Of a stretch of 28,516 nt of DNA, positions 4,827-25,948 are shown in pieces. The position numbers were made by a program, and so were the translations under genes. The DNA is from a virus, in the IMG/VR virus record IMGVR_UViG_3300036835_000414, positions 1 to 28,516 of that record. One strand, given 5' to 3'. Numbering within the stretch: the first letter of the stretch is position 1; the number at the start of each line of letters is the position of its first letter. The notes beneath the pieces are model-generated. The model did not search any database, was not told where the DNA came from, and was given only the letters and a program-made list of their open reading frames with translations.

Positions 4827-4861
4827 CTCCCTTCCGTATCCCGCCCTTTCAGGGATTCAAC

Positions 4862-9717: not shown

Positions 9718-9721
9718 CAAT

Positions 9722-9810
9722 GCTCCGGAAAAACGAAACGCCCCCACCGCCGGCGAGCTGCCAGCAGCGAGGGCGACTTCCCTCTGGGATCGATCGATCC
9801 CGACTATGTC
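9722..9810 (-). promoter_or_regulatory. Two-hairpin leader element, copy B
   Basis: Read on the minus strand: GACATAG (9810-9804), a perfect 16-bp palindrome (GGGATCGATCGATCCC, 9786-9801), GGGAAGTC (9782-9775), an imperfect GCCC...GGGC hairpin (about 9740-9774), then the tract TTTCGTTTTTCCGGAG that ends as the ribosome-binding site of the gene at 9717. It resembles the element at 25805-25890 in order, spacing and sequence. The hairpin followed by T-rich sequence looks like a terminator placed just before a ribosome-binding site. The 139-bp gap 9718-9856 holds no gene. Confidence 0.6.
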
Positions 9811-9856
9811 CCGTTCGCTAGTATTTCTACAACACTTCGCGCTCCGGCGCCACTGT

Positions 9857-12130
9857 CTACAGGATCTGCGTGAGCAGCACCGGCAGGGTCGAGAGGCCGA
9901 GCGTCGATTGCTCCGGCCGTAGGAGATCGCGCTCGAGCCGGAGGAGCCGCACCGAGGCATCGACGCCAAGATCGGCATCGACCACGCGAACGTTTCCGCC
10001 AAGCGTCAACGCCGCGCGGGCCCAATCGGTCGGGTTCTGTCGCTCCAGATCCGCGATCGAGACCTCATACGCGATCGGCGGGGCGGCATTCGTGCCGAGA
10101 TGCCGGTTCCCGGCCTGGTGGAGGGACGCGGCATCGCCGAACTCGAAGATGTCCGTCGGATTATCGACGAAGCCGTAGACTTCGACCGTATCGTGATAGC
10201 AGGTACATCGGCCCGCCGCGGGCTGCGAGGTGGTGGTGAACGCGACCGCCAACCCGTACGGCGCTTTGTCGAGACCGAGATCGACGCCCTTGATCTCCAT
10301 CTCAACCCAGGCGCCCGTGGCGACCTTCGTCGCCCCGCCCGCGGAGTTCGTTGGCTCGATGATGTCCGAGCCGAGCGCCGCGCCGGTGATCGCCCCGCTC
10401 GCGTCGAGCGCGAAGAGCTCCATCTGGAAATTGAAATCCGTGGGCGAGGCGTTGAAGAGCGTGAACCAGAGCTGCGCGCGCACCGAGAGCCGCGTATTGC
10501 CCGCGCAATGCGCGAGATCGAACCGCGGCGTCACGACGAAGATGCTGCCGGTGCCCGAACTGTAGTCCATGAGCAGCGAGTTGCCGCCATATCGCGTGAA
10601 GCTCGGATTCGTATTTTGTGAGAACGTCGTCGGCGAATTGAGCGTCGACCACCCGTCGGGCATCGCCGCGGGGTTCGCCCAGTTCCGCATCCAGCCATTC
10701 GGGACGAATTGCGACACGCCGACCACGAGCGAGACGCCCAGGTCGCCCGCCTTCATCCCGTAGCCGGTCGGCGGCGCCTGGACCTTGGTCGCATCATCCA
10801 GGTAGCTCGGGATCTCGCCCGCGCCATCGAGCTGCACGAACTCGACAAACATCGTGGCGTTGAATCCCGCGCCCGATGCGACCCGGATCACGTCCGTCGC
10901 CGCGGTGGTGATCGAGATGCGTTGCGGCGTGCCCACGACGGTGCCGCCGCTCGACAGCGTCCAGACCTTCGCGTACCAATCGACGAGCTGCCCGTTGACG
11001 GTGATGGGGTTGCCGGACAGCGTGAGATCGTTCGTGGCGACATTCGAGATCGCGAAACGCGGGCTCGGGCTCGTGATCGTTCGGGTATTCGTGCCCGGTT
11101 CGGTCAACCGAAATTCGATCAGCTCGTTCGTGGCGAACGTCGAGACGTCGAGGAGCGTCACGGTTTGCGCGGTGGCGTCGGCCGCCTGGATCTGGAACGT
11201 GCGGCCCGTCTTCACCCGAAGCACATACGCCAGTTTCCACTGGTCGGTCATGCCGATCGGTCCGGCACCGCCCGATGGATCGGCGAGCGTCAGCTTCTTG
11301 TTCACGCCGTCGACGTTGGTCACGACCCAGCGCGAGCGACCCGGAATGCCCGGCGATCCCGATGGATCAGACTCGCCCGTCACGAAGAGCCGCGTCGACT
11401 GCTGCGACGCATCGATGCGTCGCTTGAGCGACTGCAGATTGCTCCGGGGCAGCAGGAGCGGCACGGTCGCCGTCGAGCCAATCTGCGTCACCAGATCGAG
11501 CTTGTAATCCGTTGTGCCGTTGCGCCGCAATCGAAGCTCGCACGAGATGTTCGACTTCCGGAGCTGATCGCGGATCTGCTGCGCCAGCGCGAGCGGCGTC
11601 AGACGGGACCAGGTGAGCTGGGCGATGAGCGCCGTCGGATCGATCGTCCCACGCGAGACCCAGCTCGGGCAATTCGGGATGACGTACGTATCCCACGCCT
11701 GCGTGGCCGTGATCGAGGTCGCCGTGAAGTCAAATGTCCGGAGACAGAGGGCCGTCGTGGAGACGAGGCCCTTGCCGGTCGACGAGTCCGCGCCTTCGGC
11801 GAGATCGAGCAGGAGCGCATTGGCGGTCACCGTGATCGGCCCGTTCAACCCGCGGGAGTCGTCGATCAGCGAGACGCGCCACTCGTCGAACGATCCATCG
11901 TCCCAGACGACGGTGACGATCGACCGCGCGGCCAACGACGAGAGAAATCCACGCGTGGCGCCACTCTTGTCGACGCGCGTGAAGGCGACGATGAGCGATT
12001 CCTGATCGTCGATCGCGCGAATGTCCGAGGCGGCGATGATGTCGCCGCGATCCGCGTAGAGCACGCCGAAGCGCGTGCCGCCCTGGCACTGCAACTTGGT
12101 CCAGAACTCGACGCGCTTGAAGGCCGGCAC
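9857..12130 (-). CDS. Tail hub/Tal-like baseplate protein with a CBM-like insertion, 757 aa
   Basis: GTG start at 12130, coupled to the upstream gene 3 bp away. Residues 1-240 and the C-terminal 680-750 look like a siphovirus tail hub: an early strand-rich part, then LTPLALAQQIRDQLRK, and at the end YEVSIADLERQNPTDWARAALTLGGNVRVVDADLGVDASVRLLRLERDLL, the closing segment typical of Tal/gp27-like hubs. Residues 310-450 contain a beta-rich stretch. Residues 478-655 (NGWMRNWANPAAMPDGW, then SLLMDYSSG...WVEMEIKGVD...YHDTVEVYGF) have the shape of a carbohydrate-binding jelly roll. It probably forms the tail tip and also binds cell-surface glycan. No muramidase or peptidase motif was found. Confidence 0.75.
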   Translation of the reverse strand: MPAFKRVEFWTKLQCQGGTRFGVLYADRGDIIAASDIRAIDDQESLIVAFTRVDKSGATRGFLSSLAARSIVTVVWDDGSFDEWRVSLIDDSRGLNGPITVTANALLLDLAEGADSSTGKGLVSTTALCLRTFDFTATSITATQAWDTYVIPNCPSWVSRGTIDPTALIAQLTWSRLTPLALAQQIRDQLRKSNISCELRLRRNGTTDYKLDLVTQIGSTATVPLLLPRSNLQSLKRRIDASQQSTRLFVTGESDPSGSPGIPGRSRWVVTNVDGVNKKLTLADPSGGAGPIGMTDQWKLAYVLRVKTGRTFQIQAADATAQTVTLLDVSTFATNELIEFRLTEPGTNTRTITSPSPRFAISNVATNDLTLSGNPITVNGQLVDWYAKVWTLSSGGTVVGTPQRISITTAATDVIRVASGAGFNATMFVEFVQLDGAGEIPSYLDDATKVQAPPTGYGMKAGDLGVSLVVGVSQFVPNGWMRNWANPAAMPDGWSTLNSPTTFSQNTNPSFTRYGGNSLLMDYSSGTGSIFVVTPRFDLAHCAGNTRLSVRAQLWFTLFNASPTDFNFQMELFALDASGAITGAALGSDIIEPTNSAGGATKVATGAWVEMEIKGVDLGLDKAPYGLAVAFTTTSQPAAGRCTCYHDTVEVYGFVDNPTDIFEFGDAASLHQAGNRHLGTNAAPPIAYEVSIADLERQNPTDWARAALTLGGNVRVVDADLGVDASVRLLRLERDLLRPEQSTLGLSTLPVLLTQIL

Positions 12131-12133
12131 GGA

Positions 12134-13312
12134 TCAGCCCTCGCGCATGTACGCGAGCGTCTGCACGCCAGCGGCGATGCGCATGGTGCGGAGCGCGAAA
12201 TAGCCGAGCTGCCCGTTGCCCGAGCCGATCGTGAGGGTCGTATCGTGCCAGGCGGCCGCCAGCGCGTTCGCCGCCGACGCGCCGGTCACGGTCTCGGCGC
12301 CGCCGTTGATCGATGCCCCCACCAGGACGGACCCGTCAGCCTGCAGCACGTGGCGGCCCTCGACGCGCTGGCCGAACGTCGGCGCGATCGCGGCCTGCGC
12401 GGTGACGAGCGCGGTCCCGTTGTGATGCTGGAGCTGCGGCTGCAGCGTCGAGCCGTCGAGCCGGCCGAGGAGATACGGATTCGTGCTGATCAGGTTCGAG
12501 AACGAATGAAAATTCGTCGTCGCGTCGGCGTTCACGTACCACACGGCGTCATGCAGCACGGTCAGCGCGCGCGGTGGCACATTCAGGGGGAAGGACAGCG
12601 CGTCGGCCGCGCGCGTCTCGGTCGCCGTGTTGTCCGCGGCCGTCCCGATCGGCGAGGAGGCGTGCTTGCCGTTCTCGTTCTGCACCCAGTCGATCGCGAA
12701 CTTGTCGCCGTTCGTGACGATCCGGAATCCGACCGTGGGATTGGCAAGCGTCTGCGCCGGAATCGTGGCGCGGGCCCAACTCGTCGTTGTGGGGACCGTC
12801 GTCCACGTCGAGCCGTTGTCCGTCGTCATCTGCAGGTTGCCGGCGCCGCTAATGCGCTTCACCCAGGCTGATTGCAGCCGGGCGCTTGAGCCCAACGTGA
12901 TCGCCTGCAGCACCGTGCCATTCGCGAGCGTCGAGACAATCGAGCTCGCGCTATTCGCCACTCCATCGATGCCGATCTGATCGCGCACTGCTGTGACGTT
13001 GCTCTTCGTCCAGGACGCGTTCGAGAGGTCGCGTTTGTGGAGCACGACGTTGGTTCGTGTATCCTCGAGCAGAAACCCCGGCGTCTCGAGGACGGAATCG
13101 CCATCGAGGTCGAGCCATTGAAACCGCGGCTCGGAATGCGCCGCGACGTGGAGGATCCCGTTGCTCCCGATCGCGCTTGCCGGAGATGTCCGCGTGAACG
13201 TCGCCGCCTGGCCGGTGACGGCGTTCAGGCTGTTGCGCTCGAGACACCAGCGCGCCTCGAGATCGAAGAGATAGCGCGAGTATTTGCGATCGCGCGGGAT
13301 GAGCACGGTCAT
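12134..13312 (-). CDS. Tail-tip protein with carbohydrate-binding-like module, 392 aa
   Basis: The start is the ATG at 13312 (MTVLIPRD), overlapping the Dit stop (ATGA); the open frame runs further upstream but is a shadow there. The N-terminus has the pattern of phage tail and adhesin proteins: ATFTRTSPASAIGSNGILHVAAHSEPRFQWLDLDGDSVLETPGFLLEDTRTNVVLHKRDLSNASWTKSNVTAV, in which a RFDYD-like line is followed by a G-[FL]-L-[IL]-E-x-x-x-TN-[LV] segment. The rest is a set of beta domains (about residues 110-250 and 250-392) of jelly-roll appearance. It lies between Dit and the hub, so it is probably a distal tail component that binds surface sugars. No active-site motif is visible. Confidence 0.65.
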   Translation of the reverse strand: MTVLIPRDRKYSRYLFDLEARWCLERNSLNAVTGQAATFTRTSPASAIGSNGILHVAAHSEPRFQWLDLDGDSVLETPGFLLEDTRTNVVLHKRDLSNASWTKSNVTAVRDQIGIDGVANSASSIVSTLANGTVLQAITLGSSARLQSAWVKRISGAGNLQMTTDNGSTWTTVPTTTSWARATIPAQTLANPTVGFRIVTNGDKFAIDWVQNENGKHASSPIGTAADNTATETRAADALSFPLNVPPRALTVLHDAVWYVNADATTNFHSFSNLISTNPYLLGRLDGSTLQPQLQHHNGTALVTAQAAIAPTFGQRVEGRHVLQADGSVLVGASINGGAETVTGASAANALAAAWHDTTLTIGSGNGQLGYFALRTMRIAAGVQTLAYMREG

Positions 13313-14103
13313 AGCCAGGCCTTCGCGAAGGTCGCCAGCCCGACGCCGCCGGAGAGCTCGAGCGTCGGAAACTGGCCGAGCTCGATCCACCCGTCGGCGC
13401 CGCGGAACGCCAGAAAATCGCCGGAGGTCCAGAGCGCCGTGCCGTCGGTCTTGACGCCGGCCGTCGACAGCGTGACCATCGGGCGCGCGCAGTCAATCGC
13501 CAGGTAGTCGTTCACGCCGAGGTTCACGGTGAACCCCATCGTCCCGATCGGATCGCCGGCGGCGTTGCGGTAGGTGAACGTCGGGTTGTTGAGCGTCGAT
13601 CCGCCGCCGGAGACCACGAGCTGCGGGAAGCTGACGCCCGTCCCCATCGGGAGCGATGCACGGGCCGTCGAGAGCGGGATGCCCTGCGGGTTCACGTCGT
13701 ACAGCTGCGGATCCGCGCAGTCGAACGCGATCGAAATGTCCGCGTCCAGGCTCGAGAAGATCGCCCGGCGCGGCGGCGCGATGAAATCGGTGAGGCGCCC
13801 GTCGCGAAGCTCTCGGTCTGGCCGATCGGCGAACCGGATCCGGACGGCGCCCTGGGCGCACAGCTGCTTGATCGCTTCGATCGCCGCGAGCTTCGCGGCC
13901 GACGACCCGGCGAGCACATGCCCGGAGATCGTGACGCGCCGGCTCTGCGCCTGCGTCGGCTCTCCGGACCAGGCTTGGCCGAGCACGCCGAGCAGCGCCA
14001 TCGTCGGATCCGAAAATGACGGCGTCGCTTGGTGATTCGGGTTCGCGCCGATCACAAAGCCGTAGTCGGCGAGATCGACGTCATTGATCCAGACTTCGCT
14101 CAT
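13309..14103 (-). CDS. Distal tail protein (Dit-like), 264 aa
   Basis: The N-terminus WINDVDLADYGFVIGAN, then WSGEPTQAQSRRVTISGHVLAGSSAAKLAAIEAIKQLC is the usual Dit pattern: a short strand ending in L-x-x-YG-[FV], then R-x-[IV]-x-[IV]-x-G and a helix that ends before a capped loop. The rest (RIRFADRPDRELRDGRL, ISIAFDCADPQLYDV, then a beta-rich C-terminal half with a TMGFTVNLGVNDYLAIDC segment) fits the galectin-like C-terminal domain of Dit proteins. It follows the tape measure gene, overlapping by ATGA, which is the normal position. It forms the ring joining tail tube and tip. Confidence 0.75.
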   Translation of the reverse strand: MSEVWINDVDLADYGFVIGANPNHQATPSFSDPTMALLGVLGQAWSGEPTQAQSRRVTISGHVLAGSSAAKLAAIEAIKQLCAQGAVRIRFADRPDRELRDGRLTDFIAPPRRAIFSSLDADISIAFDCADPQLYDVNPQGIPLSTARASLPMGTGVSFPQLVVSGGGSTLNNPTFTYRNAAGDPIGTMGFTVNLGVNDYLAIDCARPMVTLSTAGVKTDGTALWTSGDFLAFRGADGWIELGQFPTLELSGGVGLATFAKAWL

Positions 14104-17100
14104 TGGGAGCCTACAAAGGGCGAGGCCACGTCGATCGTGCCGCGGTTGATGGCCTGCTGAATGAGCCCGCGTCCGAGCGCGATGCTGATCTGCCGTGCGA
14201 GCTCGGCGCTGATTTGGCCGGCGAATGCCGAGGCATCCCCCGATGCTCCGTTGAGCGTCACGCCGCCGACGTTGACGACAACGGATGGCCCACCGCCGCC
14301 TCCGCCCCCCGAGCTGCTCTGCGGGGCGGACGATGGCGCGTTCACCGTCGTGAGCGCCGGCGGTTGAAATCGAATCGTCAGCGAATCGCGAATCTCCTTC
14401 AGGTAGTCGCGCGACTCGAGCGAGACATTCAGGTGGCGCAGCTCGAGGTCGGCCAGCCGATCGCCCTGGATCGTGGTGAGATTTTGATAGCCGGCGGCCA
14501 CCGCCGACGTGGCGCCGGATCCGGCGCCGCCGAGCGCGCCGAGGTCCGTGCTCCCGTCGAGCGGCGGCAGATGCCGAATGCTGTCGATGAGCGACTTCAC
14601 CTCGAGCTTGATGTTCGGATCGAGGCCCGGATAGTCCCAGAGGCCGACGAGGTAGGACAGGGCGCCGTCGCGGCCCGCTTTGGTCTTCAGATCGTACTGG
14701 CTGAGATCGATCTTGAACGCCTTCGACCGATCGCCGACCTGCTGGTACGGATCGGTGATGTCGTGCACGTCCTCGTAGTCGGAGATGCTGCTTGAGAGAT
14801 CGCTGAAGCTCCGCGCCGCGTTCTCCGCGCTCGATGACGCGTTCTGGGCGGACTTGTCGAGATCGAGCAGGGCCTGAATCAGATCGTCGATCGACAACCC
14901 GGCCGTGTCGACACTGTCCGGACTGTTCTTGATCTTGTCGAAGAGATCCTGAAAGCTCGCATCGAGTTTCGCAATGTCGCCCGGCGACAGATGCGCGAGA
15001 TCGAAACCCTTGAAGAGATCGCCGAGGGCGCCGCCGGCGCCGGCGTACGCTTTTGCTTTGTCGGCGAATTGCTGCGTTGGATCGGTGACGTGATGGATCT
15101 GGTCATACTGGTCGGCGAATGTCGTCGCGGCGTTAAGCAGATCCTCGGCGGCTTTCTGTGCCTGCTGCGCGTGAAACGCCGTCGCTTCAGCGGCCTGTGT
15201 GGTCGCGAGCGCGTCGATCGTCGCCTGGTCGGCGTGCGCTGCGATCGCCGCGTCCATCTCGCGCGTCTGCTTCTCGGCGAACTCTTCGGCGTCCGCCTCG
15301 GCGTTCAGCCCCTGCGCGCGGAGGAGTCGAACATGCAAATCCTCTTGTTCTTGCTTCTGCTGTTCGAGGTACGCCTTCTCAAGCCCCGGCTCTGCCTTGT
15401 CGATCGCGGCCTTCAGCTGCAGGAACGTCGCCTCAGTCCCGTCGAGCGTGATGCCGAGCGCCTTCGCTGCCGCGTTCAGTTCGTCGATCTGAAGCGGCGT
15501 CAGGCCGGAGAGATCGGCCTTCACGCCAATGCCCCCGAACGCGTACTGTGAGCCTGCCGTGCTGCCGTGCTTGATCAACGTGTCAATCGCCTGCCCGGCG
15601 GCCGAATACGCGCCAGGCGGGACGACGACGCCCTTGATCGTCTCTGAGAGATGCCGGAGCGCGGCGGAATTGTCCTCGATGACTTTCTGATGCTCGAGCT
15701 CCGCTTGATCCTTGCCGCCGAGCACAGAGGACGCGATCGTCGCGAGACCGCCGGCGATCGGAAGTATCGAGCCGACCACACTCCCGATCGTCGCGAGCGG
15801 ATTGCCCTGCGCATCGCTCTTGCCGAGGCCCGCGAGTTGCGAAGCGACGACGGGAATCTGCGTCGCGATCTCGACGACGGAGCGAAGCGTGTTCGTCGTT
15901 TTCTGATCGACGAGACCGAAGGCGCCGGCGAGCTGCAGCGCGCCGTCCGCGGCGTCGCGAATCGCGCGCGCCTGCTCGACGGTGTCCTGCATCGACCGCT
16001 TGAGATCGACGTTCCCGTCCTTCTGAACGGTGACCATGCCCTTCAGGATCTCCGCGCGCTTCTTATCGAGATCGAGCAGGGCTTTCTTGATGTCCGCGTC
16101 GGCGTTGTTGACTTTGAGGATCTCGACGTCGGATGCGATCAGCTCCTGTGCCGCCGCGTTGATCGCCGTGACGGAGTCTTGCGGCGTCGTTCCGGGTGCG
16201 CCGACACCGGCGATCGCGCCGGCGGCCTTCTGCAGCGCGGGCTGCGCGGCATTCTTCGCCTGATCGATCAGCCGCGTGAGCTCGACCTCGTTCAGGAGTC
16301 GCTCTTTCTGCGCGATGCTCAATTCGTTGTTGAGCGCGATCTCGTTCTTGAGTTTAAGCGCGCGCTCGTCGATCGCCGCGGCCGCGGCCTGGGCGGCGTG
16401 TCCCGTTGCAGCGGCCAGGGCGGATTCAACTGCAATGACGAGATCCTCGCCTTGCGCCTTCGCGAGCACGCGCGCGTTGTCTGCTGCGAGCTTTTCCTTT
16501 GTCGCGGTCTCGTCGAGTTGCAGCGCGAGCTTTTTCTGGGCTAGCGCCGCCTCTTCGGCCTGTTTCTTTTCCTCGGCCGTCATGACGTGCGGCGCCGCCG
16601 GATTCGCCGTACCAACGTTCGTGAATGTGCTCGAGAGAACCGGCGTCGATTTGAACGTCAGGGCGCGGTATGCGGCGGCCGTGCCGAGGAATCCCATCCG
16701 TTCCAACTGTCCAGAGACGCCGCCCATTTTCTCGAACAGCGTGTATGCGCCGGCGACGAAGGTCTGAATGTGGCCATAGATGCCCTCGAGCGATTCCTTC
16801 CACGAGTTTTTGAGCCGCTCGAGCGTCGCGGCCGTCGAGGCTTCGTTCAGCGCCGCGCGCTTGCTGAGCTGCTCCATCGCGTCGCCGGCGATCTTCGCTT
16901 GCGACGCGTATTCCTCGATTCCGGCTTTATCGAGCTGCCCGATCTCTGATCGCACCTGGCGCAAGCCGTCGCCTTTCTGGATCAGCGCAACGATCGCCTT
17001 GGTCGCCGTATCGACGTCGATGCCGAATTTTTGGAAGATTGGCGCCGAGGCCTGGAACGCCGAGAACAGCTCGGTCACCGAGACCTTGCCTTGCGTCGCC

Positions 17101-17618: not shown

Positions 17619-17621
17619 GCG

Positions 17622-18286
17622 CTAGTCCTCCGGATCCGGAAAGGCCTGCTCGAACACCTCGCGCCGCGCCCGGTCGCTGTCAGCACCGCTGCCCAGCGCC
17701 AACCCGATCCCACGTACGGTGTCGGTCACATCGATCGCCCGGTGCATCGTCAGCGAGTGGAACCGCGCCCACACGATCCGCACCGGCACGCACCCGTCGA
17801 GCGTGCCGTCCGGCCCGCGGCCCCACCGCTCGGGCGCGCACACCCACGCGGCGCCGAGACGGTCCTCGCAATGCGCCAGCGCGACGTCGAGCGAGAGGCG
17901 CGGCCCATCGCCGGCTACATCGTCCGGGATGGAGTTCGCCCGGGCGAGCGCATCCCATTCATCCTCGGGCTCTGCGGGGGAACCGGGCTCTCGCCCCGCA
18001 GGCGTCCGAAAAAATCGCGCAGCGCTGTCATGCGCTCGGCTGGCTCGAGCGCGAGAAGGATCCGCACCGGATCGCCGCGCAGGAGATACGACGGCCGCCA
18101 CGGAAACGCGCGGCGGAGGATCCAGCGGATCGCCGTCTGGCGTTGCCGCTCCCGCGTCGCGGTCGCCATCCACCCATCGAAGCGCTGGCAGTCCGGCGCG
18201 CTCACATGCCGCGCGATGAACGTCCGCCCCTGGTGGCGGAATTCCCAGGGGCGGTGCGCGGCGCGATACGCATCAACGTCGAACAT
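17622..18286 (-). CDS. Tail assembly chaperone, G-GT -1 frameshift product, about 221 aa
   Basis: Translation starts at 18286 in the G frame, slips -1 at T TTT TTC (18014-18008) and continues in the second frame to the TAG at 17622. This gives 93 G residues plus 128 GT residues. The GT part reads RTPAGREPGSPAEPEDEWDALARANSIPDD, then LSLDVALAHCEDRLGAAWVCAPERWG and ends FEQAFPDPED. The second frame has no plausible start near its beginning, so frameshifting is the natural explanation. The place, between tube and tape measure, matches lambda gpGT and its relatives, which bind the tape measure and tube protein during tail assembly. Confidence 0.75.
17915..18286 (-). CDS. Tail assembly chaperone G, 123 aa
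   Basis: The start at 18286 has GAGG with 6-nt spacing. The longer open frame upstream covers the tube gene and is a shadow. The protein (MFDVDAYRAAHRPWEFRHQGRTFIARHVSAP, then DGWMATATRERQRQTAIRWILRRAFPWRP, then EPAERMTALRDFFGRLRG) is helical and basic, in line with tail chaperone G proteins, and it lies between tail tube and tape measure as required. Ribosomes that do not slip end at 17915; the last 30 residues after the slip point (GESPVPPQSPRMNGMRSPGRTPSRTM) look low in complexity and are probably just the unshifted tail. Confidence 0.75.
   Translation of the reverse strand: MFDVDAYRAAHRPWEFRHQGRTFIARHVSAPDCQRFDGWMATATRERQRQTAIRWILRRAFPWRPSYLLRGDPVRILLALEPAERMTALRDFFGRLRGESPVPPQSPRMNGMRSPGRTPSRTM
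17972..18014 (-). promoter_or_regulatory. -1 programmed frameshift signal
   Basis: The slippery heptamer T TTT TTC is at 18014-18008 in the G frame. After a 6-nt spacer (18007-18002) comes a stem with arms CTGCGGGG (18001-17994) and CCCCGCAG (17979-17972), 8 perfect pairs and a 14-nt loop. After a -1 slip the next codon is CGG, which enters the open GT frame. The heptamer type, spacing and stem are all standard for -1 frameshifting in tail chaperones. Confidence 0.8.
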
Positions 18287-18294
18287 GCGCGGCC

Positions 18295-19323
18295 TCAGTC
18301 GTAGACGAAGTTGAAGTCGTCGTTCGAGCTGGCGGTCGAATTCGCCGGCTGGATCGTCAGCTCGCACTGCGGAATCGCGTTGTTGTTCACGAGCTTGTAG
18401 CCGACGACCTGCGCCTGCGGGAAATTGAGCTTCTCGCGGAAGTATTGCGTCGTGCCCTTCTGGATGATCATCGAGAAGATCTGGCCGCTGTCGTAGAGCC
18501 GGTACGGATCGAACGCCGTGGAGCTCGTGTACGGCGCGCCGACGACGAGCGCGGTCGCCTCGAGGACCACCTTCACCGTCGGTTTCCGATCGCCCGGCAC
18601 GAACCCGCGGTGCGTGCCGTTGCCGCTCTGGTTCACTCGAGGGAAGAGCTCGCGGCCCATGTCGAACGAGTGCGAGATGATCTCCGCGTTCGCGGAGAGC
18701 CCGCCGATCGTGAGCGCGATCGTGCCGGAGAGGAGCGGCAGGATCGTCTGCAGGGGATACGTGATCGCCGGCACGGCGGCATCCGTCGGCAGCGTCGCGA
18801 TGCCCATCGCATCCATCGTCCAGATGGGCGGCTTGGTCGTCGGCGCGTCGAACTTGAGATTCCCGAGCACGCCGGCGCCGACGTATTTCTCGCCGCGCGC
18901 ATAGAGTTCGGCGCCCAGCGACGTGTAGGTGAGTCCCGCCACCGTCGGCGCATAGGTCCACTTCTCGGTGCCCGGCGTCGTCACGACCGTGGCATCGAGC
19001 CCGCAGGCCTTGAAGATGTTGTGCAGCGACGGGAACACGCTGGCCGAATACGCGATCCCCGCCGTGCGCTGATAGAACGGGATCGAGCCTTTGAAGAAGA
19101 ATCCCGAGGGTGCGACGTTGGCGATCTGGCCCAACGCGCTTACCGAGGGGCCGAGGTCGCCGTCGTTGGCGTAGTCGAACTCGATCGGCGCGCCCTGGTA
19201 CCGGCTGGGATACTGCATCTGGATGCCGTCCGTCGCGCCGGCGAGCGTGGCCCCGGCGCCGTAGCTCGCCTCGGGCTTGCCGAGCAGCCCCATGATGTGA
19301 ATGACCTTCGCGAGTGCCGTCAT
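18295..19323 (-). CDS. Major tail tube protein, 342 aa
   Basis: The start at 19323 has AGGAG with 9-nt spacing. The sequence carries the tail tube pattern of long-tailed phages: an N-terminal VIHIMGLLGKPEASYGAGATLAGATDGIQM, then QGAPIEFDYANDGDLG, FFFKGSIPFYQRTAGIAYS, a SLHNIFKACGLDATVV helix-strand, and in the C-terminal half GFVPGDRKPTVKVVLEATALVV, FSMIIQKGT and VVGYKLVNNNAIPQCELTIQ. It lies upstream of the G/GT chaperones, in the standard order. It polymerises to form the tail tube through which DNA passes. Confidence 0.8.
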   Translation of the reverse strand: MTALAKVIHIMGLLGKPEASYGAGATLAGATDGIQMQYPSRYQGAPIEFDYANDGDLGPSVSALGQIANVAPSGFFFKGSIPFYQRTAGIAYSASVFPSLHNIFKACGLDATVVTTPGTEKWTYAPTVAGLTYTSLGAELYARGEKYVGAGVLGNLKFDAPTTKPPIWTMDAMGIATLPTDAAVPAITYPLQTILPLLSGTIALTIGGLSANAEIISHSFDMGRELFPRVNQSGNGTHRGFVPGDRKPTVKVVLEATALVVGAPYTSSTAFDPYRLYDSGQIFSMIIQKGTTQYFREKLNFPQAQVVGYKLVNNNAIPQCELTIQPANSTASSNDDFNFVYD

Positions 19324-19329
19324 GGCCGA

Positions 19330-19650
19330 TTACTCCTGAGGTCCGTCGGTGACCGGCGCCGCGGCGGTCGCGACGTCCGGATCCGGCGCAGCTGCCGGGA
19401 ACTGCGTCACGATCGACGCGACGGTCGTCTTGCGGGCCGCGGCGATGCTGTCGGGCGTGCGCGCCGTGCCATCCTCGGCCGGGACGAGATCCGCGAGCTC
19501 GATGGCGTCGCCACTGGCGAAGACCGCATGCGGAATCGTTCGCCGAGTGAGCTCCGCGGCGTGCCAGGCCTGCACGGCCGCGCGGCTCTCGGCGACCGCC
19601 TCGGCCGGCACGAGGACCCGCTCGCCGTTGATCAGGATGTATTCGGTCAT
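19330..19650 (-). CDS. Small phage protein between tail terminator and tail tube, 106 aa
   Basis: I start at the ATG at 19650 (MTEYILINGERVLVPAEAVAESRAAVQAWHAAELTRRT); the frame further upstream is a shadow of the next gene. The N-terminus is a strand-turn-strand followed by an Ala/Glu-rich helix, then an acidic, Ala/Pro-rich tail (FPAAAPDPDVATAAAPVTDG). No family is recognised. The position between tail terminator and tube suggests a tail assembly or minor tail role. Confidence 0.6.
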   Translation of the reverse strand: MTEYILINGERVLVPAEAVAESRAAVQAWHAAELTRRTIPHAVFASGDAIELADLVPAEDGTARTPDSIAAARKTTVASIVTQFPAAAPDPDVATAAAPVTDGPQE

Positions 19651-19667
19651 TCCAGGTTCCTCGAGTG

Positions 19668-20165
19668 TCAGGAGAGCAGGTCGCGGAACTCGAGCATGCC
19701 GGTGATCGCACCGGTCACGATCGCGCCCTCGATCGGCGTGAAGTCGGGTGCGGCCAGGAGCTGGTCGCAGTGATAGATCTGCAGATTGTTTCGGGTCGGC
19801 GGATTGAGATTGAACCGCCGCCACGACATGAGCACCGCGCGGAGGATGTAGCTCGTCTCCGCGGCGGCGACGGCCGTGTCCTGATCGGATCGCGCGATCC
19901 GCACGAGGATGTCGGCCGTGCCGTCACCCGTCACGGTGTTGTTCGCGCCGTCGAGCGGTGCGATCTGCCGCACGTTGACGGCGATCCCCGGGATCGACGG
20001 AAAGCGCAGCTGCGCGACGGCGTTGTCGGCGGTCTGCTCCGCGATCGTCCCGATGACGGGCAGCGCATCGCCCGGTTCGCGCGGCACGATCGCGAGACAC
20101 GCCGCGATCCCATGCAAGGGATCGTTGAACCATTCGGTGAGCGAGCGCGCGACTTCCAAGATCAT
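19668..20165 (-). CDS. Tail terminator/completion protein, 165 aa
   Basis: ATG at 20165, with GAGGG close before it. The sequence is beta-rich with conserved-looking runs: LTEWFNDPLHGIAACLAIVPREPGDALPVIG, AVAQLRFPSIPGIAVNVRQIAPLDG, TADILVRIARSDQDTAVAAAETSYILRAVLMSWRRFN, ending GAIVTGAITGMLEFRDLLS. The gene sits between the FII-like connector and the tube gene, the place of lambda Z/U, so I call it tail terminator or completion protein by position. Fold and family are not certain. Confidence 0.5.
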   Translation of the reverse strand: MILEVARSLTEWFNDPLHGIAACLAIVPREPGDALPVIGTIAEQTADNAVAQLRFPSIPGIAVNVRQIAPLDGANNTVTGDGTADILVRIARSDQDTAVAAAETSYILRAVLMSWRRFNLNPPTRNNLQIYHCDQLLAAPDFTPIEGAIVTGAITGMLEFRDLLS

Positions 20166-20172
20166 CGGGCCC

Positions 20173-20478
20173 TCATGCGAGGATCACCTTTTTCTGATGC
20201 TCGCCGACGTGCCGGCTGTCGCGCACGCGGTACGTCGTACCTTTAATCACGATGTCCGCATCGAAGACCGCGACGGCATCGAACGCCCGCCCCTTCACCG
20301 AGCCGAGCTCGAACGTGAACGTGCGCCGATTGATCGGCGTGAAGCCGCCGGCGGGATCCGGCTCGAGCACGTCCTCGGCATCGAAGAAGCCCGACGTCGA
20401 CACCGCGCCGATGCGCGCCGAGTCCGAGAGCACCGGATCGGCGTACATCGTCGCGAGGTCGTCGTCAAACATCGACAC
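20173..20478 (-). CDS. Head-tail connector, lambda FII-like, 101 aa
   Basis: I chose the GTG at 20478 because AGGA lies 7 nt before it; an ATG two codons later (20472) is 13 nt from AGGA. MSMFDDDLATMYADPVLSDSARIG opens like FII-type connectors, and the rest (FDAEDVLEPDPAGGFTPINRRTFTFELGSVKG, FDADIVIKGTTYRVRDSRH) is the small beta barrel with a DxIxIxGxxYxVxxxx strand common in that family. It lies between the head protein and the tail terminator, as FII does between D/E and Z. It joins the head to the tail. Confidence 0.65.
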   Translation of the reverse strand: MSMFDDDLATMYADPVLSDSARIGAVSTSGFFDAEDVLEPDPAGGFTPINRRTFTFELGSVKGRAFDAVAVFDADIVIKGTTYRVRDSRHVGEHQKKVILA

Positions 20479-20490
20479 GGCGAGATCCTC

Positions 20491-20970
20491 TTACGCCGTG
20501 TAGCTCGGCTGTGCCGCGCCGGCGTACATCGGCACGAGGTACACGACGCACGACGTGAAGTTGGCCGCGTTCGACGCACCGGTGCGCGGCGCGATGTACG
20601 TGAAGCCGTTCGCGAGATCGAGATCGGACGGGCCGACCTCGATGATCACGAGCTTTTCCTTCACCGCGGCGTCGGTCGTGAACGACAGCGCGTCGGTCTG
20701 GCGCGTGTACGTGTCGTTCGTCGCTTCGTCGAGATTGGTCCAGATCCGGCGGACGCCGGTCAGGACCTTGGCGTTGAGGCCGGCGGCGTTCTGCGCCTGG
20801 AGCAGATCGAGCGCAATCGTCGCGGCGTTGCCCTGATCGATCTCGAACACGAGATAGGCCTTGTGGGCGAAGGCCATGTTGAAATACCGGCCAGTGCGGC
20901 CGGCGGCGTCCGTCGCCGGCTTGAGGCCGCCGAACACCTTCGCGTTCTCGGGCAGCGTGAAGTTGTGCAT
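20491..20970 (-). CDS. Conserved phage head protein, possible decoration or minor capsid protein, 159 aa
   Basis: ATG at 20970, with GAGGA about 11 nt before it. The sequence matches from memory a widespread phage head-region protein: LPENAKVFGGLKPATDAAGRTGRYFNMAFAHKAYLVFEIDQGNAATIALDLLQAQNAAG, VRRIWTNLDEATNDTYTRQTDALSFTTDAAVKEKLVIIEVGPSDLDLANGFTYIAPRTGASNAANFTS. Adjacent to the capsid gene, it is probably a head structural or decoration protein; its exact place in the head is not known to me. The stop is 12 bp before the connector gene. Confidence 0.65.
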   Translation of the reverse strand: MHNFTLPENAKVFGGLKPATDAAGRTGRYFNMAFAHKAYLVFEIDQGNAATIALDLLQAQNAAGLNAKVLTGVRRIWTNLDEATNDTYTRQTDALSFTTDAAVKEKLVIIEVGPSDLDLANGFTYIAPRTGASNAANFTSCVVYLVPMYAGAAQPSYTA

Positions 20971-21002
20971 GTGATGAAATCCTCAAGCGGGAGTCGGAAG
21001 AC

Positions 21003-21054
21003 GAGCGGGCGGAATGGACTGCGCGCCCGCTCGAGCGCGAAGCATCGAGCGGGC
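21003..21054. repeat. Two mutually exclusive hairpins between capsid and head-protein genes
   Basis: GCCCGCTC (part of 21024-21034) can pair with GAGCGGGC on either side: with 21003-21011 (9 bp) or with TCGAGCGGGC at 21045-21054 (10 bp, perfect). Only one can form at a time. There is no T run, so it is not a plain terminator; it may set the ratio of capsid to head-protein expression or protect the capsid mRNA end. The 92-bp gap 20971-21062 holds no gene. Confidence 0.5.
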
Positions 21055-21062
21055 GAGATCGA

Positions 21063-22379
21063 TCAGGTGCGAGTGTTGAGCGTCGAGAAGAAGCCGCGCG
21101 CGGTCGATCCCTTGTACGGCGTGACCGTGGTGTTCCACACCGGCTTGCCATCTGCGCGATAGGTAATCCGGATCGTCGTCTCGTCGTTGAGAAAGCGGAC
21201 ATGGAGGCTCGTCGCCACCTGTGCGCCGCCTTTCTCGCCGAAGTGGTACTGCGACGGCGCGATCGCGATGATGTCGCCGGGCGTGCCCGGTGCCTCGCAC
21301 AGCTCCGACGCGAACGCCGGCGCACCGAGGATCCGATCGACGCCCGCCTGATCTCCCAGGTTGCCAGCGGCGACGAACACCGGAATCGTCGAGCTCCCCG
21401 TCCCGACCGTGGCGAGCATGAGCGTCGACAGGAGCTCCTGGTTGTACAACCAGATGATGTCCTTCCAGAGCGAGGCCGGGATATTGGCCTTCATCTTCGT
21501 CACGTTGGCGGCGATGAACTGCGCGCTGTTCGCGATGGTCTGTGTCGCCTCGATCGCCTGAACGACACCGCCCTTGCCCTTGAGGAAGCCGAGAATGTGG
21601 GATCCGCCGACGCCGCGGAACGCTTCGCTGGAGAGCATGAACTGCAGTTCAGTCGTGAACGCCGTCTGGAGCAACGCCGCCGCCGCCGGCGAGTCCTGCA
21701 TCTGCTCATCGGTCAGATAGCCGAGGCCCATGATCTTCTTGAGCAGCTGCTCGACCTGGCGCAGCTTGTACTTCTTCGCGGCGACCGTGTCGGCTTCGTC
21801 GGCATAGAACATCTGGATGCCGCCCCAGCGCGATCCGTCGACGCGCGAGCTCTCGTCGACCACGTTGTACACGGTGCGGTTGCTCGTCGAGCCGATCGGG
21901 ATGCGCGTGGTCCGCGACAGAAATGGATCCGTGGTGTAGACCGGCTCGATCACGCCAGGCAGAACCTCCGGCGCGATGAAGAAGCCGCCCTCCGAGCCAA
22001 CCGACTCGTTCATTCCACTGGGAGAGCCAGCCATCATGTCGAGCGCGCCCGCGCGATCGATCTGCATCGCGTTATGATTGACGCGCACCAGACGCGCATC
22101 GGCGCGGCCGAACCGCCTCGCCGCCACGATCGATTGCAGCTGATCACCGAGATTCGCGAAGGGCCTCTCGGCCTCGCGGTCCGCACCGACGACGATCGAC
22201 GGCGCGGCCTTGGCCTTCGCGTGCACGTGCTCGAGCACGCGCGTCGCGGTCTGATCTTCGGTGAGGCCTTCGTTCACCATCGCTTCGATGGCGTCGTCGG
22301 GAATCTGATGCGTCTTGCCGATGGCGCGGATCCGGCTGGCTCGCTTGCGCTCCGCGGCGAGGATCTCTTCTGCGGTCAT
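21063..22379 (-). CDS. Internal start: major capsid protein with scaffold-like N-terminus, 438 aa
   Basis: Met410 of the fusion is an ATG at 22379 preceded by AAGGACGTCCAC, giving AAGGA with 7-nt spacing, a better site than many genes here have. Translation from it would give a 438-aa protein: a scaffold-like helical segment of about 70 residues followed by the HK97-fold capsid. This is analogous to lambda C/Nu3, where the scaffold starts inside the protease gene, but here it is the capsid itself. It would allow many capsid copies per protease. The start is inferred from the sequence only. Confidence 0.5.
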   Translation of the reverse strand: MTAEEILAAERKRASRIRAIGKTHQIPDDAIEAMVNEGLTEDQTATRVLEHVHAKAKAAPSIVVGADREAERPFANLGDQLQSIVAARRFGRADARLVRVNHNAMQIDRAGALDMMAGSPSGMNESVGSEGGFFIAPEVLPGVIEPVYTTDPFLSRTTRIPIGSTSNRTVYNVVDESSRVDGSRWGGIQMFYADEADTVAAKKYKLRQVEQLLKKIMGLGYLTDEQMQDSPAAAALLQTAFTTELQFMLSSEAFRGVGGSHILGFLKGKGGVVQAIEATQTIANSAQFIAANVTKMKANIPASLWKDIIWLYNQELLSTLMLATVGTGSSTIPVFVAAGNLGDQAGVDRILGAPAFASELCEAPGTPGDIIAIAPSQYHFGEKGGAQVATSLHVRFLNDETTIRITYRADGKPVWNTTVTPYKGSTARGFFSTLNTRT

Positions 22380-23606
22380 GTGGACGTCCTTGTTCGAGGT
22401 GATGAGGGAGAGCGTTGGAGCAGCTGGAGCAACGGTTGACGCCGACGTGTCGTCGGCGGGTGAAGAGGCATTCGGCGACGCTCGCGCGCTCCGCCCGGCC
22501 GCCTCGTCGGTGCGGTAGCTACACGCGGTACAGGTCCCGTCGTCGTTCATCGGCGCGTTGCACTCGGGACAGAGATCATCCTCGTCGTCATCGGGCTCGG
22601 GCTCTGGCGATGGATCGTCCGCGCGGCGCGCGGCGCCGGTCTCGAGGACCACCGGAGGCACGGGCAGCTCGCTGTTGCCGTCGAAGGTGGCCGCAGATTG
22701 TCCGAGTGCGCGCCGTGGGCGGCCGCTCATGCCGACGTCCTTGGCGCCGAGCCGATTGAGCGTTTCCTCGAGCGTCGCGATTTTGTCGATCATGCCCGCG
22801 GCGAGCGCCTGCTTGGCGGTGAGGGAGCGGCCCTGGCCGAAATCGCTCTTCACCGCGGCGACTGAGACGCCGCGATGCTTCGAGACGGCCGCGACGAACA
22901 TCTGGCCCATTTCGTCGACCTGGCCCTGAATGAACGACTCGGCATCCGCGGAGAGCGGCTCCCACGGATTGCCCTCGGCCTTGTGCTCGCCGTACTTGAT
23001 GATCGTGTACTTGAGCCCGAGCTGCTCGTCGTAGCCCGACTCGTCGAGATGGACGCAAAAGACGCCGATCGATCCGGCTTCGCCCGACGGCGTGCAGACG
23101 ATCTCGTCGCAGGCCGAGCAGATCCAATACGCGGCGGAGCACATCTGCCCGTTCGAGACGGCGATGAGCTGCTTGCCTTTCCCGCGCGCGCCGAAAATCC
23201 GCTTCGCGAGCTCCGGCGTGCCGGTGACGTTGCCGCCCGGCGAGTCGCAGTCGATGACGATCGCCGACACATTCGGATCGTTCATCGCCGCGTCGAAATC
23301 GTCGGCGAAGCGTTCGGCCGACGTGCCGCCGCAGAGCGCCATCATGAGATCCATGCGCTGCGCGATGACGCCATACATCGGGAGCACGGCGATCGCGCCG
23401 CCGTTCTTCGTCACCGGGCGCCGCTCCGCGGCCTTCGGCGTGCGCTCGACCGCCGCGATCTCCTCGGCCGACAGTTGGCCGGCGGCGCGGAGCTCGACAT
23501 ACGCAAGCAGCTGCTGGCCGGCGCGCGGCTCGATCGCCCACGGCGTGGCGGCGATCGCGCGACGGACCGCGGGGAGCTTGAAGCGCGTGATCGTCGGCGT
23601 GGTCAT
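21063..23606 (-). CDS. S49 protease / zinc-ribbon / scaffold-like / HK97 major capsid fusion, 847 aa
   Basis: The start at 23606 has GAGGA with 5-nt spacing, at the end of the portal gene. Residues 70-290 are an S49 (SppA/gpC-like) protease: IDCDSPGG at 118-125 (oxyanion loop), the nucleophile Ser157 in MCSAAY, and Lys209 in GEHKAEGNPWEPLS as the likely general base. Residues 330-365 are an acidic linker with a CxxC...CxxC zinc ribbon (Cys346, 349, 359, 362). Residues 410-480 (TAEEILAAERKRASRIRAIG, then IPDDAIEAMVNEGLTEDQTATRVLEHVHAKAKA) look like the scaffold segment found at the C-terminus of phage prohead proteases. Residues 530-847 are an HK97-fold capsid (EGGFFIAPEVLPGVIEPVY, SRVDGSRWGGIQMFYADEAD). 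Head maturation is inferred: self-cleavage would release the capsid part. Confidence 0.8.
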   Translation of the reverse strand: MTTPTITRFKLPAVRRAIAATPWAIEPRAGQQLLAYVELRAAGQLSAEEIAAVERTPKAAERRPVTKNGGAIAVLPMYGVIAQRMDLMMALCGGTSAERFADDFDAAMNDPNVSAIVIDCDSPGGNVTGTPELAKRIFGARGKGKQLIAVSNGQMCSAAYWICSACDEIVCTPSGEAGSIGVFCVHLDESGYDEQLGLKYTIIKYGEHKAEGNPWEPLSADAESFIQGQVDEMGQMFVAAVSKHRGVSVAAVKSDFGQGRSLTAKQALAAGMIDKIATLEETLNRLGAKDVGMSGRPRRALGQSAATFDGNSELPVPPVVLETGAARRADDPSPEPEPDDDEDDLCPECNAPMNDDGTCTACSYRTDEAAGRSARASPNASSPADDTSASTVAPAAPTLSLITSNKDVHMTAEEILAAERKRASRIRAIGKTHQIPDDAIEAMVNEGLTEDQTATRVLEHVHAKAKAAPSIVVGADREAERPFANLGDQLQSIVAARRFGRADARLVRVNHNAMQIDRAGALDMMAGSPSGMNESVGSEGGFFIAPEVLPGVIEPVYTTDPFLSRTTRIPIGSTSNRTVYNVVDESSRVDGSRWGGIQMFYADEADTVAAKKYKLRQVEQLLKKIMGLGYLTDEQMQDSPAAAALLQTAFTTELQFMLSSEAFRGVGGSHILGFLKGKGGVVQAIEATQTIANSAQFIAANVTKMKANIPASLWKDIIWLYNQELLSTLMLATVGTGSSTIPVFVAAGNLGDQAGVDRILGAPAFASELCEAPGTPGDIIAIAPSQYHFGEKGGAQVATSLHVRFLNDETTIRITYRADGKPVWNTTVTPYKGSTARGFFSTLNTRT

Positions 23607-23613
23607 CGCATCC

Positions 23614-25191
23614 TCATAGGGCCGCCAGGTGGCGGGCGCCGGATCCGGACGACTTGCCCGTGCCGTCGCCGTCGCCCTGGTTCGTCTCGTCGGTCTCGCC
23701 TTCGGGGCTGACCGTCGTCGGCGTCGTGCCGCTCATCTGATTGCCGCTCGTATCGACGTCGTTCGCCTCGGCGTACTGCTGCTCGAGCGCGAGCTCGTCG
23801 ACGATGTCCTCGTAGTCGTACCCGCGTTCGCCGGCGAGCCGGGTGCGGCTGTTCAGGCCGAGATCGATCTCCATCTTCGCCGCGCGGAGATCGTTGTATG
23901 GCTCCGTCCATTTCCAGCCGCGGCCGTGCCACGTCACGGCATAGAAGTCGGCGCCGAGCCGGCCGTCGACGCCGATCGCCCCGCGCAGCGTCGCCTGATC
24001 GACCCAGTCGCGATAGGTGACGCGGTTGTCGTGCATCGCGAGCCAGCCCTGCAAACCGCGCCAGCGATCGCGTTCGGGGATCGTGCCCGCGCGCTGCGAG
24101 GCGTAGTTCGCCTGGCGGAGATCGCCGGTGAGGGTCATGTACGACGTGCGCAGTCCGCGCGCCGTCGCCCGGTGCACGGCCATCACGAATTGCTCATAAC
24201 CGACGCTCGGAAACGTCGGGTCGATCGACTCGATCTCCTGGCCCGGCAGGAGCTCCGGCATGATGCCGGGCTCCATCGCGAACGTCTTCGGCTGCTCGCC
24301 CTTCTTCGGCGGCTCCCACGCTTCGATCGCGTTCGGATTCTTGTTGAGAATCACCGCCATCTTCGACGCGCCGGCGCGCGCGGCGACGAGGTGGCTCAGC
24401 TCGTACTCTTGCTCGTGGCGCAGCGACGCGAGCACCGGCGCGAGCCAGGTCACGCCGCGCGGGATGTTCGCCCGGTGCCACCGCACGAAGAGATGCTGAA
24501 TGTCCTCGGCCGCGATGCGTTCCCGCGTGCGCTCGACCGTACTGTTCATGTCCTCGGCGTAACGATTCCACGCGTGTACCGCGACGGTGCGATTCCGCCG
24601 ATCCTTCTCGAGGCCCATGACGATGCGATTGCCGTTCGGCAGCGACGGGACGTTGTACGTCTCGTCGACGAGATCGGCATCGAGGATCTGCTGCGCGTAG
24701 CCGTACGGATTGTCGACGCCGCGGAGGCGCCGCACGAAGACTTCGCCGTCGACGGCAATCGTGATGATCTTCTGCCGCTGCAGCTCGATCCAGCTGTCCT
24801 GGCCGTCGGCGCTCGCGTACTCGGGCACGCCCCACGCATCCCACGCTTCTTCAATCGCCGCGTTCGTCGTTTTCGCCGGCTGGCCGAGCGCGTTCTTGAT
24901 CTGCGCGTGCAGGCGAATGCCGTTCGCGCCGACGACGTTGTTCGCGAGCTCGTCGAGGAAGCCGACGATCCACGGATTGTTCCGCGCGAAATACCGCGCG
25001 CGCGCGCGCATCGTCCGGAATCCGTAGCGCGTTTCGAACTCCGGCGAGACCGTCCAGGTGTCCCAGTCCTGGTAGAGGCGATCGTACGACGCGCCCTGCC
25101 AGACGCCCGTCGAGCTCCGCCGCGCCGGCGCCGGCGAGAGCCCGTGCGCGACACGGCGCAGCGCGTTGGCGAGGGATCCGCGGATCGTCAC
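23614..25191 (-). CDS. Portal protein, lambda B family, 525 aa
   Basis: GTG start at 25191, overlapping the upstream stop (GTGA). Lambda-type portal features: SPEFETRYGFRTMRARARYFARNNPWIVGFLDELANNVVGANGIRLHA at the N-terminus, LQRQKIITIAVDGEVFVRRLRG, QQILDADLVDE, RIAAEDIQHLFVRWHRANIPRGVTWLAPVLASLRHEQEYELSHLVAARAGASKMAVILN, then MTLTGDLRQANYASQRAGTIPERDRWRGLQ and a C-terminal AKMEIDLGLNSRTRLAGERGYDYEDIVDELALEQ. It forms the twelve-subunit ring at one vertex through which DNA enters and leaves. The acidic, Gly-rich C-terminus (GETDETNQGDGDG) is typical. Confidence 0.85.
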   Translation of the reverse strand: MTIRGSLANALRRVAHGLSPAPARRSSTGVWQGASYDRLYQDWDTWTVSPEFETRYGFRTMRARARYFARNNPWIVGFLDELANNVVGANGIRLHAQIKNALGQPAKTTNAAIEEAWDAWGVPEYASADGQDSWIELQRQKIITIAVDGEVFVRRLRGVDNPYGYAQQILDADLVDETYNVPSLPNGNRIVMGLEKDRRNRTVAVHAWNRYAEDMNSTVERTRERIAAEDIQHLFVRWHRANIPRGVTWLAPVLASLRHEQEYELSHLVAARAGASKMAVILNKNPNAIEAWEPPKKGEQPKTFAMEPGIMPELLPGQEIESIDPTFPSVGYEQFVMAVHRATARGLRTSYMTLTGDLRQANYASQRAGTIPERDRWRGLQGWLAMHDNRVTYRDWVDQATLRGAIGVDGRLGADFYAVTWHGRGWKWTEPYNDLRAAKMEIDLGLNSRTRLAGERGYDYEDIVDELALEQQYAEANDVDTSGNQMSGTTPTTVSPEGETDETNQGDGDGTGKSSGSGARHLAAL

Positions 25192-25796
25192 GCCGGATAC
25201 CCCGGAAACGCGAGCGCCTCGGCGTCACTCGGCCGTGAGGCCGGCTGGCCGAAGGCGACGACGTGATGCGGGAACGACACGCCCGGGTTGTCGGCGCGCC
25301 ATTTCTTCGCTTTGTAGGTGGCGAGCGTGCGTTTGATCTCGGCGAGATCGAGCTTGTCGACGAAGACGCCTTCGCGACCATAGCGCGCGACGTCGGACGA
25401 GAGTCGCCCCTCGAGCGCCGCTTCGCATGCGTCGATGATCCGATCGACGTGGCCGCGTGTGTCGTCCCACGTGACGACCGCGAGGTTCGGCAAGATCTCG
25501 ATCGCACCGTCGTAGATCGTGTACCGCTCGGCATTCACGCCGTCGACCCAGCCCATGAGGCGATACGTGCCGGCGATGAATCCCGCCGCCGCCGTCGCGG
25601 ACGCCGCGAGCGTCGCTTGCCACGTGCCATTCACGACCGTGACGGTCGGATCGCTCGCGAGCTCGTACGGCCCGATGATCCGGTAATGCAGCACCCACCC
25701 GTCGGCCGGCGAATAGCTCGAGAGCGTGCGAGTCCAGACGGCGGAATCGCCCGCGACGAGCTGCACAGGTTCGCACGACGGAATCGGAGCGCTCAC
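25188..25796 (-). CDS. gpW-like head-tail connector with N-terminal beta domain, 202 aa
   Basis: GTG start at 25796 with GGGAG before it, just after copy A of the two-hairpin element. Residues 10-110 are a beta-sandwich: VQLVAGDSAVWTRTLSSYSPADGWVLHYRIIGP, ATAAAGFIAGTYRLMGWVDGVNAERYTIYDGAIEILPNL. Residues 115-165 resemble gpW-type connectors (VDRIIDACEAALEGRLSSDVARYGREGVFVDKLDLAEIKRTLATYKAKKW), and the gene sits between terminase and portal as lambda W does. Proteins of this two-part layout are common between TerL and portal in many phages. It probably joins head and tail. Confidence 0.65.
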   Translation of the reverse strand: MSAPIPSCEPVQLVAGDSAVWTRTLSSYSPADGWVLHYRIIGPYELASDPTVTVVNGTWQATLAASATAAAGFIAGTYRLMGWVDGVNAERYTIYDGAIEILPNLAVVTWDDTRGHVDRIIDACEAALEGRLSSDVARYGREGVFVDKLDLAEIKRTLATYKAKKWRADNPGVSFPHHVVAFGQPASRPSDAEALAFPGYPA

Positions 25797-25804
25797 CGAA
25801 CTCC

Positions 25805-25890
25805 CGGAAAAACGAAAAGCCCGCGCTACCAGCGATGTGCTGGTGCGCGGGCGACTTCCCGCTGGCCGAAGGATCCGGCCGATCTATGTC
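25805..25890 (-). promoter_or_regulatory. Two-hairpin leader element, copy A
   Basis: Read on the minus strand: GACATAG (25890-25884), a GGCCG/CGGCC hairpin (25880-25864), GGGAAGTC (25860-25853), a 14-bp stem with one bulged T (arms 25839-25852 and 25819-25833, loop 5), then TTTTCGTTTTTCCGGGAG, whose end is the ribosome-binding site of the gene at 25796. It resembles the element at 9722-9810. The strong stem followed by a T-rich run is a good Rho-independent terminator signal placed directly before a ribosome-binding site. A weak promoter (TTGCTG, 18 bp, TATTGT) may lie upstream in the 152-bp gap. The gap 25797-25948 holds no gene. Confidence 0.6.
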
Positions 25891-25948
25891 TCGATCACAA
25901 TAACATAGCGGACATTCCGACAGCAATAGCCACGAGATCGCGCCAACT

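Follow-up and report, generated by a model that had tools for sequence, protein, structure and literature searches.

Two copies of one element in the virion operon

We investigated a pair of repeated elements in the viral record IMGVR_UViG_3300036835_000414, analyzed over its whole length of 28,516 bases (hereafter, the window; 66% GC). The virion operon of this phage lies on the minus strand and encodes the small and large terminase subunits, a head-tail joining protein, a portal and a protease-capsid fusion and, further on, tail genes, a tape measure, a tail protein and other small genes. These genes are tightly packed, and the largest gaps between them, of 152 nt (25797–25948) and 139 nt (9718–9856), each hold one copy of the element, E2 and E1, respectively. 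A first-pass annotation had described the two sites as the only large gaps of the operon; they are indeed the largest, but a third gap of 92 nt (20971–21062, minus strand) follows the capsid gene and contains a GC hairpin that is unrelated to E1 and E2 and lacks a T-run. The hairpin in this third gap is GCCCGCTCGA..TCGAGCGGGC, and a different GC hairpin is found at the same place in a sister phage (L413, see below).

E1 and E2 are diverged copies of one ~87-nt element. Both were found on the minus strand at the positions and in the block order that the annotation had reported: GACATAG, a hairpin (P1), AGnGGGAAGTC, a GC hairpin (P2) and TTTCGTTTTTCCGG. As also proposed there, the conserved tail leads directly into a ribosome-binding site, and each copy stops at a Shine-Dalgarno sequence with its start codon (GGAG-N5-ATG for E1, start at 9717; GGGAG-N4-GTG for E2, start at 25796). 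The window contains the pattern GACATAG-N-GGGAAGTCGCCC two times, versus not once in 100 shuffles, a covariance model built from E2 alone recovered E1 (58.9 bits, E=6.5e-13), and blastn with E2 as the query likewise returned E1 (E=6e-9). With the same single-sequence covariance model, no third copy was detected in the window; a single match on the reverse strand corresponds to the palindrome of P2. Both elements fold better than their shuffled counterparts (z of -4.4 and -4.3, with 0 of 200 shuffles as good). E2 is present letter for letter in a separate 6-kb contig (L123), where its neighbors are 100% identical, which speaks against an assembly error in the record. Coding potential was considered for E1 and rejected: a reading frame is open through the element, yet GC content is flat across codon positions (0.59/0.63/0.63), so that E1 is probably not coding. 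A host-derived mobile repeat of the repetitive extragenic palindromic (REP) kind was also rejected, as copies were not found beyond chance.

Conserved structure, terminator-like hairpin and ends of the unit

Between E1 and E2, no base differs in the unpaired blocks GACATAG, GGGAAGTC and TTTCGTTTTTCCGG, and the tail sequence stays identical for 14 nt, into CCGG. The helices have drifted in sequence. P2 is 100% paired in both copies, with three pairs that differ on both sides and two that differ on one side, and P1, when aligned by structure (GGGATC/GATCCC versus GGCCGG/TCGGCC), has changed on both sides in four of its six pairs; P1 was compared by hand, given that the automatic model alignment (A5) misplaces the gap in E1 and undercounts the changed P1 pairs. 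Because the helices change compensatorily while the unpaired blocks stay identical, the pattern, as read from the two sequences, is that of a functional RNA and not of two unrelated terminators. In E2 only (25884–25909, minus strand), an upstream CTATGT is complementary to the ACATAG of the element (6 bp); E1 has no such match.

In both copies, a GC-rich hairpin, P2, is followed immediately by a T-rich tract, the arrangement that defines intrinsic (Rho-independent) terminators. A scan of both strands of the window for hairpins with an adjoining T-rich stretch ranked E1 first (-32.8 kcal/mol) and E2 second (-28.8), with the next site at -20.5, and P2 with its tail is terminator-like. When model R2 was run on ~1,050 bacterial genomes (three classes, chosen without knowledge of the host), the best match reached 38.6 bits, and the matches corresponded mainly to P2 with its tail, that is, to ordinary terminators or GC hairpins, which fits the terminator assignment of P2.

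At the other end of the unit, the best -10-like hexamers lie 6–11 nt before GACATAG in both copies, within local AT-rich dips, and the E2 site TTGCTG-18-TATTGT ranks in the top 1.2% of 50-nt stretches. No -35 was found for E1, and no DNA conserved between E1 and E2 was found upstream of the element. The promoter with a structured leader that the first-pass annotation had considered is thus weakly supported by the hexamers and disfavored by the lack of a -35 at E1. Because the unit begins just past the -10-like hexamers and ends at the Shine-Dalgarno sequence, the repeat may represent the whole 5' untranslated region, with putative promoters.

A predicted alternative hairpin overlapping the terminator-like arm

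The most telling feature of the element, overlooked in the first-pass annotation and new here, is a pairing between the spacer and one arm of P2. The spacer GnGGG is complementary to CCCn'C, a part of the P2 5' arm, and the two can form an antiterminator-like hairpin of 5 bp that has the loop AAGTCG. Within the 19-nt block AGnGGGAAGTCGCCCn'CGC, E1 and E2 differ at exactly n and n', the two pairing partners (A-U in E1, C-G in E2), and n' is simultaneously paired within P2 as well (U-G in E1, G-C in E2). When folding was computed on the growing transcript, the small hairpin appeared in E1 and E2 alike at about nt 44 and persisted until almost all of the P2 3' arm had been made, whereupon P2 took over. 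In the computed folds of both copies, the alternative hairpin thus uses one arm of the terminator, as in an attenuator (Table 1).

Table 1. Features of elements E1 and E2 and the genes that adjoin them
Feature	Position	Strand	Details
Element E1, upstream of the 103-aa gene 9406-9717	9725..9810	-	sequence, covariance model, blastn
Element E2, between terL and head-tail joining gene	25804..25890	-	sequence, covariance model; same in contig L123
E1 conserved 5' block GACATAG	9804..9810	-	GAC can pair with spacer GTC
E2 conserved 5' block GACATAG	25884..25890	-	
E1 hairpin P1, GGGATC-GATC-GATCCC	9786..9801	-	-8.4 kcal/mol
E2 hairpin P1, GGCCGGA-TCC-TTCGGCC	25864..25880	-	-9.3 kcal/mol; sequence unlike E1, structure kept
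E1 alternative hairpin, GAGGG-AAGTCG-CCCTC	9769..9784	-	-7.0 kcal/mol; overlaps P2 5' arm
E2 alternative hairpin, GCGGG-AAGTCG-CCCGC	25847..25862	-	-8.3 kcal/mol; overlaps P2 5' arm
E1 terminator hairpin P2, 15 bp, loop AGCTC	9740..9774	-	-30.4 kcal/mol
E2 terminator hairpin P2, 14 bp, one bulged A, loop ACATC	25819..25852	-	-28.8 kcal/mol
E1 terminator T-tail, TTTCGTTTTT	9729..9738	-	
E2 terminator T-tail, TTTTCGTTTTT	25808..25818	-	
E1 Shine-Dalgarno GGAG	9723..9726	-	5 nt before ATG at 9717; sequence
E2 Shine-Dalgarno GGGAG	25801..25805	-	4 nt before GTG at 25796; sequence
E1 possible -10, AATACT	9820..9825	-	9 nt before GACATAG; weak, no -35
E2 possible promoter, TTGCTG-18-TATTGT	25897..25926	-	6 nt before GACATAG; weak
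Terminase large subunit, upstream of E2	25949..27952	-	phrog_15, E 7e-219
Head-tail joining protein, downstream of E2	25188..25796	-	phrog_5774, E 1e-17
Tail protein, Prophage_tail endopeptidase domain, upstream of E1	9857..12130	-	
103-aa protein, downstream of E1	9406..9717	-	one N-terminal hydrophobic segment; holin-like?

Genomic neighborhood

Downstream of E1, the gene of the 103-aa protein, for which no family match was found, is followed by a gene encoding a DUF5675 protein, and the two could form a lysis cassette, a candidate assignment only. Elsewhere in the operon, the head maturation protease and the major capsid protein are apparently fused in a single 847-aa gene (21063–23606, minus strand); the genes annotated as 'major capsid' in Roseobacter CRP phages are similarly long. 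On the plus strand, the gene at 3160–3516 weakly matches phrog_2328, a transcriptional repressor of phages (E 5e-4), and is adjoined by an AT-rich region (3027–3195, GC down to 34%); judging by these features, the phage may be temperate. Also on the plus strand, a pair of small genes at 4360–5308 encodes lipoprotein-like products (..LVAACGSDSTAP.. and ..AVLVACGRDSTAP..) reminiscent of Gemmatimonadota, a possible hint that the host may belong to this group; for the first of these genes, no match was found in plasmids.

Distribution of the element

DNA-pattern searches of viral contigs and of genome contigs yielded, among the matches listed, chance matches only, besides the identical contig (L123/L124), and model R2 found no match beyond L123 in 125 phage or viral loci. 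The nearest relative of the large terminase subunit (TerL) among the viral contigs shows 46% identity in its best segment, and the element was not found in the TerL relatives among these contigs. The downstream gene has a homologue that could be placed in 16 relatives, and this homologue abuts or overlaps terL in half of the cases (8/16); four have short gaps of 26–63 nt without a comparable hairpin, and the remaining four have intervals of 324–623 nt, of which one was inspected and probably contains an inserted gene. No comparable gap was found in Roseobacter phages of the CRP-8xx group. Given that the TerL relatives lack the element and that the two genes abut or overlap in 8 of these 16, the cassette looks like a lineage-specific addition. 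One close relative was found by capsid, the sister phage L413 (IMGVR_UViG_3300044770_000108), a 5.3-kb contig with a 68% identical capsid and 69–78% DNA identity; it is collinear from the capsid to the start of the tape measure and reaches neither element site.

Relation to known leader RNAs

Many bacterial operons are known to be governed by terminator/antiterminator leaders, and N, Q and put are familiar examples of antitermination in phages. Among Rfam covariance models, none matched the element, apart from a chance match to a CRISPR repeat (E=4) on the opposite strand.

The closest working analogue, on grounds of architecture, is the group of operons controlled by ANTAR proteins. The target leaders of these proteins (EutV/eut, NasR/nasF, AmiR/amiE) carry paired hairpins in front of terminators that are scattered along one operon; each of the two loops has six nucleotides, of which the first is A and the fourth is G (PMC3369931). 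E1 and E2 similarly place two small hairpins ahead of a putative intrinsic terminator, the second of which pairs with sequence that the terminator needs, and occur in several copies within one operon, before separate genes. We nevertheless rejected membership in this group: the second loop, AAGTCG, has six nucleotides and A1 but carries T4, and the P1 loop is 3–4 nt long. No ANTAR protein was found among the phage proteins scanned.

The element also resembles the ribonucleic antiterminator (RAT) of BglG, SacY and LicT in that an antiterminator-like hairpin partly overlaps a terminator-like one and the two would be mutually exclusive. RAT, however, is described in PMC3369931 as a single 29–30-nt stem-loop, whereas the small hairpin of E1 and E2 spans 16 nt and is accompanied by P1 and GACATAG. 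No Rfam match to RAT was found in the element, although no dedicated RAT model was run, and no BglG-type protein was detected among the phage proteins scanned. A further resemblance is to the start-associated sequences with inverted repeats (ESAS) of cluster K mycobacteriophages, which are repeated units of an inverted repeat plus a motif just before the starts of unrelated genes (PMC3203893). Each ESAS includes the 13-bp GGGATAGGAGCCC next to the start and there are 11–19 copies per genome (PMC3203893), but neither GGGATAGGAGCCC nor such a copy number is seen in this phage.

Regulatory interpretation and alternatives

We favor, with a probability of roughly one half, the reading that E1 and E2 are a duplicated terminator/antiterminator leader that gates two gene blocks, which would be off by default, under shared control and released by a factor. 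Of the roles contemplated in the first-pass annotation, this agrees best with a terminator or attenuator permitting read-through: the copies comprise the two strongest terminator-like hairpins of the window, and in both the alternative hairpin overlaps the 5' arm. Judging only by where the copies lie, the proposed split of the operon into three units is plausible.

In the default fold, P2 and its T-tail would act as an intrinsic terminator just ahead of the ribosome-binding site, so that polymerase would mostly stop, whether it had started further upstream or at a promoter immediately ahead of GACATAG. In the alternative fold, the spacer GnGGG would pair with CCCn'C of the P2 5' arm; termination would then fail, because the remaining inner stem would be incomplete and too far from the T-tail. 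Read-through would reach the head-tail joining gene and onward at E2, or the block past the tail genes, possibly lysis genes, at E1. The small hairpin would be the first to form, and the factor would have to hold it against P2. The likely recognition site for such a factor would comprise the identical GACATAG, P1 and the AAGTCG loop. We further propose that the 5' GAC could pair with GTC within the small-hairpin loop to form a pseudoknot, which would explain why GACATAG is fixed.

Several observations weigh against this interpretation. P2, at about -30 kcal/mol, is far more stable than the alternative hairpin (-7 to -8), so that switching would need a factor, and the alternative hairpin taken alone was not significant in a shuffle control on A5 (246/500). 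The covariation amounts to a handful of changes in two paralogous sequences, and no homologue of the element was found in viral contigs or in the ~1,050 bacterial genomes. In favor of the pairing, ~5–6% of random spacers produce such an overlap with P2 (4% when the same energy is required), and in ~1.3% of cases two random changes hit the two sides of a single such pair and keep it paired, but these values were computed after the pairing had been noticed and are therefore optimistic; being post hoc and drawn from just two sequences, they are suggestive, not proof.

The plainest rival, which we consider unlikely, is that E1 and E2 are partial terminators that lower head-tail and post-tail transcription by a fixed ratio without any switch, the repeat having arisen when an entire intergenic region was duplicated. 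Together, P2 and its tail are strong and, by themselves, match ordinary intrinsic terminators of bacterial genomes, but such a role leaves unexplained the identical GACATAG, spacer and loop beside drifted helices, as well as the co-varying spacer/arm pair. This co-varying pairing would likewise be unnecessary for a leader that serves mRNA stability or translation, in which the hairpins would guard the 5' end and the U-rich stretch by the Shine-Dalgarno sequence would recruit ribosomes, like a strong phage capsid-gene leader. We regard such a role as improbable: although the conserved unit stops at the Shine-Dalgarno sequence and includes the invariant 14-nt tail, the geometry of a stem followed by a T-run is that of an intrinsic terminator.

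Slightly more improbable, in our estimate, is a late promoter coupled to a leader terminator and a DNA-loaded antiterminator of the lambda-type Q or AlpA kind, such that transcription would start near GACATAG and stop at P2 until loading. The known scheme, a promoter, a -10-like pause and a downstream intrinsic terminator (PMC9371919), is echoed here by the terminator-like hairpin that separates a possible promoter from late genes, and by the -10-like hexamers in AT-rich dips before both copies. However, E1 has no -35 and, whereas Q and AlpA bind DNA in the promoter (PMC9371919), the DNA upstream of E1 and E2 is not conserved, though a DNA-loading factor should need a shared site there; moreover, conservation tracks the RNA helices. 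Finally, an autonomous RNA antiterminator of the put type, with P2 as the second of two hairpins acting on polymerase, appears very improbable. Like put in phage HK022, the element is a phage RNA of two hairpins and ~70–90 nt with two related copies in the genome (PMC9378689); put itself consists of two side-by-side stem-loops of ~70 nt that suppress termination while early genes are transcribed (PMC9378689). In E1 and E2, by contrast, an 11-nt spacer lies between P1 and P2, a T-run directly follows P2, the opposite of what an antiterminator needs, and both sites are in the late operon, not just past early promoters, on which grounds membership among put-type RNAs was rejected.

Implications for late-gene control

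If the duplicated terminator/antiterminator leader that we favor is real, two matching switch-like leaders in a single virion operon would provide a compact means of timing or balancing assembly and, possibly, lysis, and no separate late promoters would be needed for the head-tail block and the block past the tail genes. Because the element is short and its sequence completely defined, read-through would be directly testable, with the two copies as a built-in comparison. A more far-reaching version, which we deem quite unlikely, is that the element belongs to a class of regulatory phage RNA not described before, in which a pseudoknot-capable sensor (GAC:GTC, with P1 between) would read a phage or host signal and release both blocks together. 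In that case, late-gene timing inside the operon would be set by a duplicated RNA switch, and not by a promoter or a Q or N protein.

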